A stretch of DNA of 64,000 nucleotides, from NCBI RefSeq assembly GCF_011745365.1, contig NW_024468909.1:806001-870000 (forward strand), given 5' to 3'. The DNA comes from Cryphonectria parasitica EP155. Lineage: Eukaryota; Ascomycota; Sordariomycetes; Diaporthales; Cryphonectriaceae. Made by a program: the position numbers and the translations under genes. Below are positions 46,367-54,990 of this stretch, piece by piece. Under the pieces are notes generated by a model, which was not told the origin of the DNA, did not search any database, and saw only the letters and a program-made list of their open reading frames with translations. Position 1 is the first letter of the stretch. Every line of letters begins with the position of its first letter.

Positions 46367-48435
46367 TTTTAAATCCCAGAAAATAGGTAATTTTTTTAAA
46401 TAAAAATATACTGGCTTCTTCGAATACTTCTGCAATTGTTTTATTCTGACGTCAGGAGGTGGAGGATGAGGTGGTGGTGGAGGCGCGTGTTGGTCTCTGC
46501 TTAGAGAGAGAATTTACTGTACTCAGGAGGCGAGGTCCTCCTACTCAATTCTTGGACTGTCGTCTCCCCCGTTGGCGGGCTGAATTTGGAGGAGTGGAAG
46601 TCGGTACGTACCGCCACCATAACAAGACTGGGGGGGGGGGGGGAAGAGGCAAAATTAGCATCCAGGAGTCTTACCATAAGTATATTGAGCCAATCGAAGC
46701 CGCTGTGATTAAAGTCTGCTCACCCCTGTCCAAGTGTTCGAAATAGGCCTGGCTCGACGATTTGGCACGTTTTTTCTCTCTTCTTGTCAGGGTTAGGAGC
46801 AGCGTTTGCCATGGATGGAAATTTCATTTAATTTTTCTCTATTTGAGGGAAATCTCAGAATTAATGCATGAATCATGGTCACGGCCTACAGCTCCTAGTA
46901 CAGACCTTTCTTTTGTCTGTCTCTGTCTTGGTGCAAATACTACAGTAGTAGTACCCCAAGTACAAGTGGGGAGGAATTATGTGTGCGTTTGGAGCAGTGG
47001 GGCGCGGCTCAGGAGGTTTCGTTGGCTACGGAGTAAGCTGCACATTCTGAGGCGGGATCAGATCCAGGCAATAGTATCAGGGGACAGCAAACGCTGCGAT
47101 GCAGGATGAGAATGGTTCTGAGCGGAGCCATTCCCCAGAAACCTGTACTTGTCATCGATGCATCTCTAGCTTTAAGGCCTGCCTGCTGCTGGGTTGGTTT
47201 GGGCCCTCAGCAGTAGTACAGTATGAACAGGGACCGCCTGAACGAAACCACCAAGCCATGGGTGTTCGTTTTGTACACCTCGGTAGTTATTGACACCCCT
47301 CCCCCCTCCAACCTCCCTCGTCGATCGCATCTGGAAAAGCACGAGGTTCCCTCCGCCTGCGAATGTTGCCATATCACTGGCGTCGTGAGAAGGAGAAGGA
47401 GAATAGCATAAAGGTCCAGAAAATGAGTTCACCTAGGAGAGATTGAGCAACGTAGATAGGACTCACCGCCCTTGTCGCTCCTAGGCCAGCGTAATTTGAG
47501 AGAGAATAGAGTTATACACACTACTTGGTTTCTCTCAAGCACATGATAATGATGGAGTGCAGATCTGGCTCGAGGTGGACAGAAAAAGAGGCGAGACAGC
47601 GTGGCCGTAGGTGTTTTGAATAGGTAAAAACCAAAGTACGTCCCTACCTCTCTCATCTTGCTACTGCTGCTGGTGTGGTGATGGAGGAGGCTCGAGTGCT
47701 GTAGAAAAATCCGTTCCGGGATGGCCGCCAAGAAGCAGGGCTGATAGCGGCACCCCCGGGGGTTCGTATTCTGGTGGTGGTTGTCTCTTACTGCAGGCTT
47801 GGAACCGACGACACTCAGCTTTCTCAGCACAGAATTGCATCAAACGCAGTCAACAACCAACTCGCTGAATGGGCTCGCGTACCTATTGTCTTTCACATTC
47901 TTTGGCCCTCATTGATCTTCCAAGCCTCAATTTATTTTACTCTTCTATCTGCAGCCTGCGACACCTTGCAGAAAGCTGGCCTCGACTCGACCTCTTACTG
48001 CGCGGCTCATACCTGTCTCCATCTTTCTCTCTCTTTCTCTCGCCTGCACCCCAGAAACCAAATCTAGCAGCGCCCAAAAGCCCGCCAGCCATCACATCAC
48101 TTTTCCTTTTCCAACAGGCAACACATAACAAACACGCACACGTCCTCTCTTGCAGCTGAGAAAAAAACAACAAAGATAAACTGTTGATATTGTCAATCAG
48201 CAATCTTTTTTTTTTCCTTCATCAAGGCGATAACCCCCCTTCTGCCTTACCCTGCACGAACTCTTTCGTGTCCCTTTCAAAACCTCTCTCCCCTGTTACC
48301 CGATCTCACCTTTTTGTAACCCCGTTACCAACAACCCTTTTTTCTTTCTTTTCTTTTCTCCTCACCCTGCTCCAACTACCACCACCAATTCTATCTTGCC
48401 TCTCTGCATTTTCAGGTGAATGGCATCTACACACC
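46367..48435. other. divergent intergenic region between bmt5 and the Q/P-rich nuclear protein gene
   Basis: No gene seen. There is a G-run near 46630 and GTAC-rich patches near 46940 and 47215. From about 47990 the + strand is pyrimidine-rich and leader-like. TTTTCAG at 48411-48417, 18 nt before the ATG, could be the acceptor of a 5' UTR intron. Confidence 0.55.
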
Positions 48436-49120
48436 ATGAGTGACGCTGCTGTTCAACGCCCCAGCCCGTCCAAGCGAGGTCGCGGCAGAGGCAGGGGAGG
48501 CGGTGGCAGGGGAGCTGCGTCTGCCCGCGCCAGAGGAAAACCTGCCGCTGGCCGTCGTGGGCGCGCCAAAGTCTACGATACCACTCGTGCTCAGGCTGCC
48601 CATGAACGTCAGCGCGATCTCAGAAATGCCTACTCCTCTCTGGCGTCTGCAATGAAGCCCGCCCTCGAGGAGCTGGCTGACCGAAACTTGGACCGCCTCA
48701 AGTCCGATTTCAACGCTCACCAGGAGGTCGACCAATACAACCAGATCACCACCTTCCTCAAGGAGCGACACAGAGATCGCGTCGACGAGGTCGAAACCAA
48801 ATACAACTACAGCATCGCCTGTCAGAACCACCAGATAAATGCACAAAAAGAATACACCCTGTACTCCTACCGAGTATGTCCAAATGCCCCCCCCCCCCAA
48901 TCTTTTCATCTGACTGCGGGTTTTCCCCCAAAGGTTTCCCTCCCGCTTCTCGGCTGGCCTGCTAACGACCCCTGCCTTACCCACCCTCGTGCAGAATCGC
49001 TTCAGCGAAAAGGTCGAGGAATATTACGACACCTTGCTCAGACGCCTTGACATCCTTCAGCAGCTGTCCCAGAATGGAGAACCAGTTGATGTAAGCCACT
49101 TACAAGAATCCACTTCAGGC

Positions 49121-49153
<33 letters not shown>

Positions 49154-50924
49154 ACTCACACACACGCACACTCATTCATACTTACCAACTCCATATAGAA
49201 ACCTGATGAGTCGTGGAACTACAAGTCCATCACCACCGAGGAGGCTGCCCAGCAGGGCATCTACTGCAAGATTCACAAGGGCGTCGAGGTTCCTTACCCA
49301 CGCCTACACCCTGAGCTGTGTCGAGAGGAGGAGGCGGGCAAGTCCAAGACCCTTCGCACCCCCAGCAAGCGCAAGGCCGCCAACCAGCTCGAGGACGCCA
49401 ACCATCCCAAAAGACCAGTGAGTGCTCTCGACGGCCAGGCTGCTGCTGCCATCCCACGTCACATTGGCGGTCTCCTCTCCGCCGTCGCCCCCGATGAGCC
49501 TGTCAGCCAGCCCCCTTCCCCCTCTCCCGTCGACGACAATGGCGACGCCGCCTCCCCCCAGGCCAATGAGCCCACCGCAGCCGCTCGCGGCAGAAAGCGG
49601 AAGCGGCTGCTGGAAGCCTCACCAGTGCCTATGGCAGCGTCTATGGCAATGGGAGACGGCGCCGAGGAGTCGGAAGCCGAAGAGGACGAGGCCATGCCGC
49701 CCCTGCCCAATGGTGCAGGTGAACCAGACGAGTACGGTGTTCGCCTCATCAACAAGAGAGCGCGGATCAACGACATGCCCAACAACCGCATCATGACCCC
49801 TCCCCTTTATGAGTATGAGAGCCATGAGATTGGTTTCCGCGACTCGACCAATGACAAGAGCCGTGGTGCCACCAAGGCGAAGCGCAGGAAGTTCCTCAAC
49901 CAGCCCAATGCCGGCGCCATGTTCTTCGATCGCAACAACTCCAGCTACGATGCCACCCGCTACGCCGACGGTGACCTGGACCAGGACACCATCGCCAAGC
50001 ACAACATACATCCCAAGTACGGCCTGTTCATGGAGGGCTCCGTCAATGACTCGGAACCCGCCAGGCCTTACCAGTCTGGTTGGATGCCCACCGTTTTCGT
50101 CTCCGACGACGGCAAGGTCCAACACACCTCGCGATCCATCCGCGCAGCCAAGGCGGAGGAGGCTTATGTCAAGCTCACCATGCAAAACATGATGAGGCGA
50201 CACATGGAGCAGGAGGATATCAGCGAGGATGACCTGATGGACCGGGAGACGAGGCAGCTCATGAAGGAGCGCGACGAGAAGAGGCGAGAGCTGGAGCGAC
50301 AGGAGGATGAGGCCCAAGATGTCCACGACCAGCAAGTCGCCGCTCACAATGTGGCCCTCCTCCTCGATGCCGCTGCGGCGTCCGAAGCCCAAGAGCTGCA
50401 AAAGACCAAGACGCAGAGTGTGTCGCCGGCCTTGTCACGCCCCTCGACCATGTCTCGACCATACGATGCGATCCGAGATGTCTTTGCTGGCTCCGACCTG
50501 CCCCCTGCCGCCGCATCCACCATTAATGCGCCTCGCTTCGAAGACGCAACAAAACTGATGGCCTTGGCAGATCTCGCGGCCCTTGAACCACGGACGGAGG
50601 CCCTGCCTATGCAAATTCCTGCTGATGCTGCTGCCCAGGAGCCTCGGCAACGAATCCCAATCCAGATGCCGGAGCCAGTCCGCCCCAAGCAACTGCGGGA
50701 TCCCTCAGACCTCGAGCAGCGTGAACAACAACACGTGGTAGATTACCCTGATCCAGACAACGAGTTTGTCCCCAGGCAGATTGCCTTTTCCACCAACTTT
50801 GTCGGCCGCCAGCCAGGATATCCCATGCAGCCGCCGCCTCATGCATACCAAGAACGAGCAGTTTCCCAGAGCCCCCTGGCGCGTCCTGAGAGTTATGCAT
50901 ATCGCGGAGAGCTAAGTGGGCGGT

Positions 50925-50961
<37 letters not shown>

Positions 50962-52279
50962 GCCTAGACAGCCAATGCAGCCGCCGCAGGGCTACCTTGG
51001 GCAGCATGATGCTCAGTCCTCTGGTGCACCTCATGACAGCTATGCCTACGGAGAGCCAGAGACGTCCTACGAACAGCAGCAGCAGCCGCTTCTGAGACGG
51101 CCATCACAATTATCACAGCGATCCGAGGAGCAGTTTGCCCCTGTACGCCCTAATACTACAGATGTTGCCTTGCTGGATCCGATGCTGTTCGAGGGAGGCC
51201 AGCGCCCTGGAACCTCCCAGCTCCAAGCACCACAGCCCGAGCAGCAGCAGCCGCCCAAGTCTCAGGCCACGCACTCTGGAGGCGTGCTTCAACAGCCACA
51301 GAACAGCTTCTTTCAGACCGCGCTGAACGCACCAGGCACACCCACCTCACAGGATCTACCACAGGTATCAGAATATGGCGAGCCTTCTTCTGCCTCCCAG
51401 GCGCATTTCCCACCTGGCCCACCACCGCTGGCTTCTTCTGCTGCACCTCATCAATTTCCTGGTGGTCACGAAGGCTCTCCCGGTCGCACGCCTTTCAGCA
51501 ACCCAATTGGCACCGAGAACATGCCGGTGCCCACGCTTCGGCCATTACATCGTGGTTCTGGCCCTCTTGTGGCTCCTACAGCATCTGGAGCGCAGGTTCC
51601 TCAGCACGTTATGATGACGCCAGGTGAGCCAGCAGACCCATATGCGGCCGCACCTCCGCTGCCTCCTGGCTCTGCATACCTCGACCAAGCCTACGCCCTT
51701 GACGGCTTTGGTGGCCCAGATCAACCCATCATGTCGACGGAACAGGGTCCACGGCATGGCTATATGGCCCAGCCCATGATGCACCCTTCGCAGCAGCAGC
51801 AGCAGCAGCAGCAGGCGGGCCAGGGTGGTGCATACCCTCCTCCGCATCAATCCTACCCGCCGCCAGGATCAACGGGTCCTCAGCACCCATCGCACAATGA
51901 TTATTCCCCATCAGGCCCTTCTGGCCAGCCGTTCCAGAGCCCTCCTCCCTATGGTAGCAGCGGCCCAGGCGTGTCTCCGTCCCCGTCTCGGCGCAGCAAC
52001 AGCATCTCGTCCAGCTCTCGAAATAACAAGCAGTACCGCGAGATCAAGCCTGCGCCTCGCCAGGCTGAGACATGGGAGCCTCCCAGCGCCGAGCTGCGCA
52101 CCTTCATGTTCAATCCGTACGAGGGCATACGCGACTACCCCGCGACCGCGCCGCCGCCGACACACGGGCCCACCATGATCCGCGGCTGGACACACACCAC
52201 GGGAACTAGGAAATCCCGCGGGAAGAACTCCACCGACTCACATATCGATCCTTCTCTGGGGCGAGAGGAGAAGAAGTAG
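48436..52279 (+). CDS. large Q/P-rich nuclear protein of unknown function
   Basis: Exons 48436-48873, 48995-49090 and 49199-52279 encode 1204 aa. I do not recognise the family. The N-terminus is RG-rich (RGRGRGGGGRG, residues 13-23) like an AT-hook or RGG tract. Residues about 45-180 are predicted helical (TFLKERHRDRVDEVETKYNY, RFSEKVEEYYDTLLRRLDIL). The middle has nuclear-type basic patches (RKRKR, KAKRRKF) and a conserved-looking block around WMPTVFVSDDGKV and AEEAYVKLTMQNMMRRHMEQ, then acidic coiled coil. The rest is Gln/Pro-rich with pure Q runs near 50930 and 51795. A GTGAGT at 49418 looks like a donor, but the frame stays open across it with sensible sequence, so I leave it unspliced. 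Composition suggests a chromatin or transcription cofactor, which is inference. Confidence 0.75.
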
Positions 52280-53062
52280 GGCTCTTCTTCCCGTGTCAAG
52301 AAGGCAGTCGCGAAAGAGGGGGTGTCTGTTCAGAAGAAGACTACTTGGGCAAATGCTATAGAGAAGATGCTCGAAGACCTGAGTGATTCTGAGGACACGC
52401 CTGCAGAGGATGAGGATACGCCTATGCCGGACGCGCCTGAAGAGCACGCGCCTGTGGAGGATACGCCTGTAGAGGACATGCCTGCAGAGGACAAACCCGT
52501 GGAGGACACGCCTCTGGAGGACACGCCTCTGCAGGACACGCCTCAGCAGGACACATCTCCCTGGGACACGCGTCGAGAGGACTCACCTATGGAGGAACTG
52601 CAGTTCGAGGACATATACCAGGAAGACAGGTATCCTGAGGACGCGCTTACGGAAGAAGATTATAGCGACGAGGAACCGACACTCGAGACCCTTGAGGGCC
52701 CTGCTCAGGGAAGAAGAAACATGCTCGACATACTCTCAGGCTTTGGGGAGGCACCTCGTGCCATCAGTCCAGAGCCGACTGCCGGTACCAGCACCGGCAC
52801 CAACGCAAGGCAGACATCTCCGATGACTTCGGTCTCTTCGGATGGTCGACAAGATGCGTGGGATATTACGCCTCCCGGCTCACAGGGACCGAGACCTCTG
52901 CCTCGAAGAGTTCTTGAGCTGCGACACGGGGTCAAGAAGAAGAGAAGAAGAGGGAGGAGGAGGAGCTCTCGCCGATCCCGTGATAGGGAGAGGAATAGAA
53001 ATATTCCCAGGAGTCCACTTGGCCCCCAGCCCGGAAGCGGCCGTATGCCACCACCCCGGTGA
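52280..53062 (+). other. 260-codon in-frame open extension directly after the TAG of the preceding gene
   Basis: After the TAG at 52277-52279 the same frame stays open to TGA at 53060. It encodes GSSSRVKKAVAKEG..., about seven 5-residue units of the P-x-E-D-T type (52450-52560), an acidic stretch, RRNMLDILSGFGEA, and a very basic Arg-rich tail (KKKRRRGRRRSSRRSRDRER). The content resembles a disordered nuclear protein tail, like the upstream gene. Possible readings are a C-terminal part cut off by a nonsense change, read-through, a splice that removes the TAG, or a separate gene starting at a non-ATG or later ATG. Confidence 0.55.
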
Positions 53063-53827
53063 GCGGATAACGAAAACATCCAAGAGATGCAACGCGACAA
53101 CAGCCTGCGTCGCATCACCCTTACACAAATCGAAGGGGGAAAAACTTGATGCCTTCATCTTGGGCTTCATTGGGGGGCATCGACATCACTGTGCGAGCCA
53201 TCTCAATCACCAGAGGACATAGACACTGGAGGACAGACCAGGCAGCATCAGCTGCCCACTAGATTGTTCGCCAGAGCTTGATCAGGAAGGCCCAATCCAC
53301 AACAGCATCGTGGAGCTCAAGGACATGCAAGAAAAGAAAAGCGACAAAAACAAAAAAAGGAAGAGAGAAAGGGTGTGTGGGGGAATGCAAGGGACAGACA
53401 CCAGAAAGGAAGGGACGATACCCCCTCAATGGCGGCTTATTTGTTGTTGGGTTTTGTTTGTATTTGACATATCACGAAGGATGATCGAACCTGCTTCGAC
53501 CCCTTCTAATCTCGTTTATTTTTTTTTTCTCCCGTCCCTCTCCAGGTCTCATGGTTTGTCTTGTTTTTCCCTGGATAGGGGGGGGTTCGGGTGGCAGGTT
53601 ATCATCGTGTTTGTAGGCATTTACAAGGGAATTGAAGGGAACGGGCATTATGGAAATCGGGGCCTAGGAGCCCAGCCTGACTTGATATTGAATCAAAAGA
53701 TCTGCATGATCATCATCAATGTCTTGCGCGAAGTCTTTTCCCCCGTCAAATGCCGTGATACTCGGGGCTGTACAGGGGCGGGCTCCGTAATCGAGATCAC
53801 AAGGCAATTCAGTAATGGCCGCCGACT
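53063..53827. other. convergent intergenic region
   Basis: No gene seen. It lies between two convergent genes and includes a T10 run near 53519 and probable 3' UTRs of both. Confidence 0.6.
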
Positions 53828-54990
53828 TTAAGCAGCAATGGCAGCAGTCGAGACAGTAGCTGTCTTGTTCCTCTCCGCCTCCTCCAACCTCTTCAGCTCC
53901 TCCTGCTTCATCTTCTCCTGAATCTTGAGCCTCTCTGGAATCACGCCCTCACGCTCATGCGTAATCTTCCATCCTTCCAAACCATCCTCCTGCCCCAGCA
54001 TCCGCAGCGTAGCCCTCTCCACCAGACTATACTGACCCTCCTCCTCCTCGCCGCTCCTGTCCAGTCTGAAGGGCTCGCGTAAGCTCACAGGCGGGTTCGT
54101 GATGATCCGCACGTTCCGCAAGCTGTTGTTGGTGCTACTATGCAGCATGAGCGGGTGCAAAAGATACACATCCCCGACGTCACCAGAGGCCTCGACATAG
54201 TCCTCATCAGCCCCCTGGCCAGAGATGCCGTTGAACCAGTCGAGGTTGCGGTAGCCCTCGGTAAAACCTGGTTCGCCGCGTGGAACCATGCGCGGGCTGA
54301 CACCCTCTGGGTGGGCGTGCAGGTGGGCTGCGACTGCGCGCATGCCGGCTGGGTAGAGGGCGGTGCCGCCGCCCTGGGGGGGAATGTCGGTGAAGAGGGG
54401 CACGACTAGGAGGGCTTGCTCGGGAGAGTCTAGGTAGTGGACGAAGAAGTCACCGTCGACATGCCAACCTGTGAGGGCCTGGGGTGGGTCGGGCTGGTTC
54501 TCGTACGTGGGAGAGCCTAAGTTTACTATGAGGGAGTCGCGCCATTCCCTCGAGGTTGGGCTGATACGTTCCTGAGGTAGGTAGGGTGGTCAGGCTCAGT
54601 CTCTCTGCATGTGAAAGGAGGAGGAGGAGTGGAGACAAAACGAACCTCACCCCCGCAGAGCTCGCATATGGCAGCCCACGCACGAGGGGCAAAGTGAGCG
54701 GCATCAAAGGTCTGGTGACTTGGCATGTTGGTGCGGATGGTGTGCCAGGTAGACTTGTCGTGAGGTTCCATGCCCAGCCTGGTCCAGACGTTCTTGGTCA
54801 TTTGGGCGGCTTGCTCTTTTGTAAACGCCTTGGGGATTCTGAATGCATGGTCCCTCTGTTAGTGAAATTGCTTGTACTGTGGTGTTGCGTGGGAGAAGGC
54901 TTAGGCTTCAGCAATAAGAACCTACTTGATCCAGCCGTGGTTGAGAAAGTGCTCCCTCTGCTCAGGAGTGAGAACCGGCTTAGCAGTCAT
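53828..54990 (-). CDS. PhyH-family Fe(II)/2-oxoglutarate dioxygenase
   Basis: Three exons, 54990-54926, 54838-54646 and 54571-53828, encode 333 aa. Introns are 87 nt (GTAGGT donor) and 74 nt (GTTCGT donor). The second joins CELCGGE to ERISPTSREWRDSLIVNLG in frame. The iron ligands are visible: His123 and Asp125 in GWHVDGDFF, and the distal His (about 230) in LLHPLMLHSS; the following Arg of RNVRI may bind 2-oxoglutarate. The N-terminus (LTPEQREHFLNHGWIKIPKA) is the usual opening of phytanoyl-CoA dioxygenase-like proteins. The C-terminus is a charged helix. All catalytic residues are present, so the enzyme is probably active. Substrate is unknown: fungal members act in varied oxidations, and the neighbours give no pathway hint. 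Confidence 0.87.

Follow-up and report, generated by a model that had tools for sequence, protein, structure and literature searches.

The window analysed here is a 64,000-nucleotide stretch of the Cryphonectria parasitica EP155 genome (contig NW_024468909.1, positions 806,001 to 870,000), and all positions below are counted from its first letter. A three-exon gene ends in a single TAG, beyond which the same frame stays open (Table 1); the exon and ORF coordinates confirmed the arrangement described in the original prediction, a 1204-residue protein separated by one stop from a 260-codon extension. The two introns of the gene have the splice sites GTATGT/TGCAG and GTAAGC/TATAG, and residues 1-1203 of the 1204-residue product are identical to the deposited model P0001 (M406DRAFT_325141). 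Unbroken CAG/GCA runs at 50928-50960 (11 units) and 51790-51814 (8 units) encode polyglutamine in the main protein. The extension contains, as had been described, a repeat of P-x-E-D-T units, followed on its 3' side by an acidic stretch and then by an Arg-rich end.

Table 1. Positions of the gene, the stop codon, the extension and the predicted or candidate features around them
Feature	Position	Strand	Description
Main CDS	48436..52279	+	Three exons, 48436-48873, 48995-49090 and 49199-52279; 1204 aa plus TAG
Stop TAG	52277..52279	+	Last codon of the main CDS; the A at 52278 is the proposed A-to-I site
Hairpin	52270..52290	+	Predicted fold: arm 52270-52276 GAAGAAG, loop 52277-52283 TAGGGCT, arm 52284-52290 CTTCTTC
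In-frame extension	52280..53062	+	Open over 52280-53059, 260 codons, then TGA 53060-53062
15-bp tandem repeat	52412..52554	+	Codes for the P-x-E-D-T units; Tandem Repeats Finder, 9.5 copies
Candidate 108-nt intron	52276..52383	+	From GenBank model P0001; donor 1.14, acceptor CTGAG -0.43, no branch motif
Second P0001 intron, inferred	52845..52936	+	GTCGAC donor -3.27, CAAG acceptor -3.41; would delete RRVLELR
RRVLELR	52904..52924	+	Possible counterpart of the Diaporthe motif KRVSELR; best of 77,860 heptad positions in the window ORFs

A homologue search with the main protein, drawn from the 7,987 candidates sharing most words, gave 130 matches, 120 of which were listed. The named organisms among the matches listed are all, we take it, Sordariomycetes. 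Pfam returned no confident domain for the main protein and 22 family members; the Sds3 family (PF08598) was matched by one of the 22 members with an E-value of 0.055, and by none via the Cryphonectria gene model. When a profile of 22 orthologues was compared with the PDB, the N-terminal region weakly matched the SDS3 structure 4zqa (E 0.028), and two orthologues carry the name 'Sds3-like' in UniRef. The main protein is thus like Sds3 of the Sin3/Rpd3L histone deacetylase complex in its N-terminal profile match and in the names of two orthologues, but it is far longer and has no clear Pfam Sds3 domain. Judged from these similarities, it is probably an Sds3-like nuclear or chromatin protein and a subunit of the Sin3 histone deacetylase complex.

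The original prediction argued that a random frame of 260 codons without a stop is improbable. In a first-order Markov model of 52280-53830, two out of 20,000 trials did stay open for 260 codons; however, 264 kb of the genome held four cases, this one among them, in which a single stop parts two same-frame ORFs of 260 codons or more each, so openness is weaker evidence than had been claimed. Codon usage is the better test. The whole extension scored 0.18, equal to the coding median of 0.18 and reached by none of 5,562 overlapping noncoding segments of 780 nt. The model had been trained on 39 ORFs and the noncoding sequence of one 200-kb stretch, which also provided both reference sets, and the 15-bp repeat adds to the score of the extension. 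The original prediction was right that the frame remains open and that the sequence beyond the TAG keeps a coding style. The first 102 nt past the TAG (52280-52381) scored 0.16, which 2.0% of 4,095 stop-free noncoding segments reached, and the 87 nt before the first ATG (52280-52366) scored 0.11, reached by 4.0% of 5,164 such segments. This coding-like stretch directly past the TAG would go untranslated if transcripts were spliced to 52383 or if translation began at the ATG at 52367. The coding character belongs to the first two-thirds of the extension, and the last third (52775-53059) scored approximately 0 in this frame but about 0.2 when read in another, a separate analysis giving a similar picture.

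The extension is present once in the C. parasitica genome, where a search for a second copy of the tail found none. The sole Pfam match in the tail was a low-complexity match to Extensin (23.9 bits against a cut-off of 105), a search for homologues by its own sequence gave three repeat-driven matches, including bacterial ones, and no known structured RNA was detected in 48000-54600 at curated thresholds. The codon statistics suggest that the extension is probably a coding tail, and the 260 codons probably specify a real but fast-evolving C terminus. Acidic and then basic, it would probably serve a subunit of a histone deacetylase complex as a disordered binding tail.

Orthologues had been named as the test for the extension, and we accept that they are the right one. 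The close group was defined as the 43 closest matches (P0001-P0043), the next match (P0044) being from Pleurostoma. Its named members are Cryphonectria, Cytospora, Diaporthe, Gnomoniopsis and Discula, presumably all Diaporthales. In 40 of the 43 proteins the C-terminal end is the equivalent of GREEKK and three are longer; in such protein entries the end point is visible, and the stop codon and hairpin are not. All 30 entries from the source 'lgn' end there, on Lys or Arg, as do 10 of the other 13. The 'lgn' entries are taken to be unspliced ORF calls, and P0012, for one, holds translated intron sequence. The three longer entries are gene models, namely P0001 itself, P0004 (D. amygdali) and P0014 (D. 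australafricana). The P0014 model reads KK-R-SQV without a break across the stop point, which may reflect either a splice or a stop that has become a fixed sense codon. On the evidence of these protein ends the stop point of the 1204-residue protein is old, and the common end point contradicts the recent nonsense change that the original prediction had offered as one option. The same count led us to reject a faulty TAG, whether from assembly or from sequencing.

A search with two Diaporthe tails found 17 proteins of 123-198 aa. D. ilicicola P0126 is the one named among them, and the others are taken for Diaporthe by similarity. Alignment of the 17 proteins with the two queries gave 31 invariant columns over 19 rows, including the motifs FRPANR and RVSELR, and in this alignment the tail ORF is conserved within Diaporthe. 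Main ORF and tail ORF apparently lie on a common contig, as the contigs of P0134 (tail) and P0012 (main ORF) both have a length of 62,225 and those of P0124 (tail) and P0025 (main ORF) one of 11,428. The original prediction had held that the extension would be fortuitous if orthologues ended at GREEKK and had no conserved tail; orthologues do end there, whereas a conserved tail ORF was found in Diaporthe. The 17 tail ORFs start in eight different alignment columns with no Met common to all, a comparison that the ORF caller's choice of start may blur.

The relation of the Diaporthe tail to the extension was approached in several ways. Using hhalign, 14 columns were aligned with a probability of 1.0%; the extension was absent among the matches listed for an HMMER profile of Diaporthe tails against the window ORFs; and a Diaporthe tail had no match at this locus in the C. 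parasitica genome, the best genome match (E 0.14) lying elsewhere. The FRPANR motif had no real match in the extension. For RRVLELR, the possible counterpart of KRVSELR, longer forms of the motif placed the extension second and fourth among the window ORFs, and the heptad score was reached by 6-38 of 20,000 shuffles of the extension, depending on shuffle type, these statistics being flattering because the motif was spotted before testing. From the start of the heptad to the C terminus there are 52 residues in the extension and 41-43 in the 19 Diaporthe tails. A DNA pattern for the heptad had 68 matches genome-wide compared with 120 for the reversed control; thus the heptad is informative by its place alone. 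The sequence link between the two tails is this one heptad and is weak. We consider it likely that the Diaporthe tail and the Cryphonectria extension are of common descent.

The TAG is predicted to lie within a hairpin, with A52278 in a loop of 7 nt closed by a fully matched stem of 7 bp, and with a predicted unpaired probability of 0.98-1.00 across six folding window sizes. Both strands of 264 kb contain 4,294 TAG triplets, and in 15 of these a perfect stem of at least 7 bp encloses the A. Fold energies were compared over 30 nt on each side of the A, as in PMC9600606: 28 of the 4,294 TAGs combined a loop A with an energy as low or lower, and four combined an energy that low with a stem as long. 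Energy, stem length, G at +2 and A/G at +3 taken together were found at one TAG of the 4,294, this site, which is a rank and not a probability since the thresholds are the values of the site itself. The flanks of A52278 (U at -1; G at +1, +2 and +3) match published preferences, and the combination of G at +2 with A/G at +3 is common to 496 of the 4,294 TAGs. Two minor flanks are disfavoured, G at -2 (C/U preferred) and C at +4 (A/G preferred). In the published editing-site model these positions weigh 0.53% and 0.60% (PMC9600606), and the two disfavoured bases accordingly weigh little.

The matching flanks and the loop are features preferred in fungal mRNA editing. Tad2/Tad3 and stage-specific cofactors edit mRNA in the fruiting bodies of Sordariomycetes, where UAG becomes UGG, with U at -1 and a hairpin loop as the preferred context (PMC11156358, PMC4817773). 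Data for F. graminearum give stop-loss editing in 323 genes and place 62.4% of edited A residues in a stable hairpin loop (PMC4817773), and the preferred flanks include G at +2 and A/G at +3 (PMC9600606). We therefore put forward as the leading explanation, tentatively and at just under even confidence, that the UAG at this locus is bypassed by stage-specific A-to-I editing to UGG. The 1204-residue protein would be the ordinary product. The A of the UAG, presented in the loop by the strong hairpin, would be deaminated to inosine by Tad2/Tad3 with sexual-stage cofactors, as in other Sordariomycetes, and the codon would be read as UGG, giving a long product of 1465 aa with Trp at the stop position. 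Hyphae would make the short form, and fruiting bodies would make the tailed form from a share of the transcripts.

Editing is favoured by the shared end point, the coding signal directly past the TAG, the loop A and its flanks, and the conserved Diaporthe tail ORF. We infer it both for C. parasitica as a species and for A52278; among the open-access papers listed, going by title and opening of the abstract, no report of editing was found for C. parasitica, nor was any found for Diaporthe. The editing machinery consists of Tad2, Tad3 and AME1; the deaminase family PF00383 has nine matches in the C. parasitica genome, counted at the level of the family and not of Tad2/Tad3. Individual sites of S. 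macrospora are reported to be mostly not conserved in F. graminearum or Pyronema (PMC5381528), and such turnover speaks against an edited site being deeply conserved. For 15 proteomic stop-loss events of the same fungus, another report gives conservation of 73% in N. crassa and 20% in F. graminearum (PMC6794485). The edited stop of CHE1 has led to three annotation errors, a short model, a small false intron and a separate gene from a downstream Met (PMC11169179). Counterparts of all three were found among the present entries: P0002 and others (short), P0001 and apparently P0004 (intron), and P0126 (downstream start).

As a PUK1-type check for editing in this species, kinases of C. parasitica were scanned, giving 132 matches, five of them with TAG as the sole internal stop. 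By eye, three of the five look like introns, and in the other two (L028 and L031) no obvious intron accounts for the in-frame TAG. L028 is a second Aurora-type kinase ORF with one in-frame TAG in the N lobe (L028:239-241, G000:C4:4565725-4565727), otherwise open through the matched part and with 79% identity over 155 aa to an intact kinase copy at C1:662807. Its TAG has the A in the loop of a weak predicted hairpin, and the ORF may be an editing candidate or a decaying copy. In the kinase-like ORF L031 (G000:C2:956517-957019, minus strand), the in-frame TAG immediately precedes KVDIWSL and its A is paired in three of four folds.

Alternative splicing would yield the same two C termini. The donor overlaps the stop (AA-GTAG), such that retention would give the short form and removal of 108 nt the tailed form. 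The original prediction pointed to one frame-preserving splice, and that splice does exist, identical to the intron of the deposited model P0001, whose junction reads GREEK-N-DSEDTP. P0004 (D. amygdali) appears to join at the same residue (AREDK-N) and P0014 (D. australafricana) could do so, and models of Sordariales and Xylariales too alternate between long and short ends. The donor at 52276 is fair. The GAG end of the acceptor also occurs in 4/24 inferred introns with a branch motif, and that motif is likewise absent from 18/42 inferred junctions and from the genuine intron 49091-49198; the comparison of splice sites, resting on 42 inferred junctions, 24 with a branch motif, is lenient evidence. 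However, the acceptor scored just under the lowest (-0.41) of those 24 introns, the site at 52383 is the single one of 19 AG sites giving introns of 41-199 nt that rejoins the frame, and the stretch removed itself looks coding. The second intron of P0001 is far poorer still and would delete RRVLELR. A terminal Lys is no evidence for splicing either, since any stop after AAG creates a GT and a terminal Lys thus often brings a donor-like site. The unseen splice of the original prediction coincides with a deposited intron but has a weak acceptor and takes out coding-like sequence. We regard the 108-nt intron as probably an annotation artefact, judge the second to be one as well, and consider alternative splicing an unlikely source of the tail.

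It is also rather unlikely that the short form is the sole product and that the extension is 3' UTR, what is left of a former tail, or a frame that is open by chance. The common end in the closest matches, the missing in-frame coding bias in the last third, the repeat-driven matches that were all the extension search gave, and the further same-frame ORF pairs in the genome are consistent with this. The whole-extension score at the coding median, beyond every noncoding segment, and the conserved Diaporthe tail ORF argue against it.

Ribosomal read-through of the UAG, which would give a low level of tailed protein at all stages, is improbable. It accords with the in-frame coding-like sequence directly past the stop and with the end point common to relatives. 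The context UAG-GGC, however, differs from the short UGA context reported for fungal read-through (PMC4207609), the predicted folding of the 121 nt that begin at the stop is unremarkable (z 0.62), and the stop is placed in the loop of a hairpin and not upstream of one. The regulated read-through (TAG G) of the original prediction was thus close in spirit, as a bypass of the stop, but a stop within a hairpin loop fits A-to-I editing better, an option absent from those it listed. That the tail is a downstream gene in its own right, started independently on a monocistronic or dicistronic transcript, as the original prediction also allowed, is highly improbable: the D. ilicicola tail is annotated as its own protein (P0126) and the ATG at 52367 has an A at -3, but the Diaporthe tail ORFs share no initiator Met among their eight start columns and the 87 nt before the first ATG are already coding-like.

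C-terminal variation was also seen in other orders. Six Hypocreales orthologues (P0105, P0108, P0113, P0116, P0117 and P0118) have a long tail after the IRG region without a stop, with VRF[AL] in five of the six and then an LRPR motif in all six. Motifs elsewhere are YNLR/YRLR-like in Sordariales and YGLRSG in Diaporthe, and the Hypocreales, Sordariales and Diaporthe tails are possibly one ancient tail. Eight Xylariales models (P0076, P0083, P0084, P0094, P0095, P0097, P0099 and P0120) have a conserved INKWN tail that starts approximately where related models end in SPK, so that two C termini may exist there too. In Neurospora/Pseudoneurospora, the long P0102 and P0106 (about 390 residues past the IRG anchor) and the short P0104 have ends that part ways within one common stretch, which points to alternative splicing or to gene models that differ. 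Separately, the exact 20-mer CAGAGAGTACTTGAATTCAG occurs on several contigs of the genome (G000), for example at C2:775667, C2:1008626, C4:81470 and C11:36819, and is probably part of a repeat or transposon.

An end point shared by nearly the whole close group together with a genus-conserved tail ORF is what selection on a stop-loss event would be expected to produce, and A52278 is a single base on which stop-loss editing can be tested. The analysis also suggests that the deposited gene model P0001 carries false introns. A 2024 review states that stop-loss editing hits hundreds of genes in two fungi, with no report on a function in sexual reproduction (PMC11156358). A wider proposal, which we hold to be doubtful, is an order-wide switch, in which a UAG kept by selection in a hairpin in Diaporthales would allow sexual-stage editing to add a selected tail to a histone-deacetylase-complex subunit, with the stop already fixed as a sense codon in D. 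australafricana.

In fungal metabolic enzymes, the extensions added by read-through are reportedly short and serve targeting. Such enzymes with read-through or splice extensions resemble this gene in having two C termini from one gene, but PMC4207609 describes a UGA context, in contrast with a UAG and a 260-residue tail here. Closer is the stop-loss editing of Sordariomycetes, as described for F. graminearum (PMC4817773) and S. macrospora (PMC6794485), which has in common with this locus the UAG, the in-frame extension and the loop A; in S. macrospora white collar 1, for example, stop-loss editing adds a 131-aa extension (PMC6794485). Individual sites are reported to turn over fast (PMC5381528), whereas here the end point is common to 40 of 43 proteins and the Diaporthe tail is conserved, with editing itself predicted. 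The premature-stop-correction genes PUK1 and CHE1 of F. graminearum likewise have an in-frame TAG, edited there and a candidate here (PMC4817773, PMC11169179). CHE1 also offers a parallel in annotation, with a conserved TAG whose A lies in a hairpin loop and a stop that automated annotation avoids by calling a false intron, by cutting the model short or by starting it downstream (PMC11169179). In PUK1 and CHE1 the portion before the stop is described as truncated, whereas here the conserved protein lies within the 1204 residues, to which the tail is an addition.
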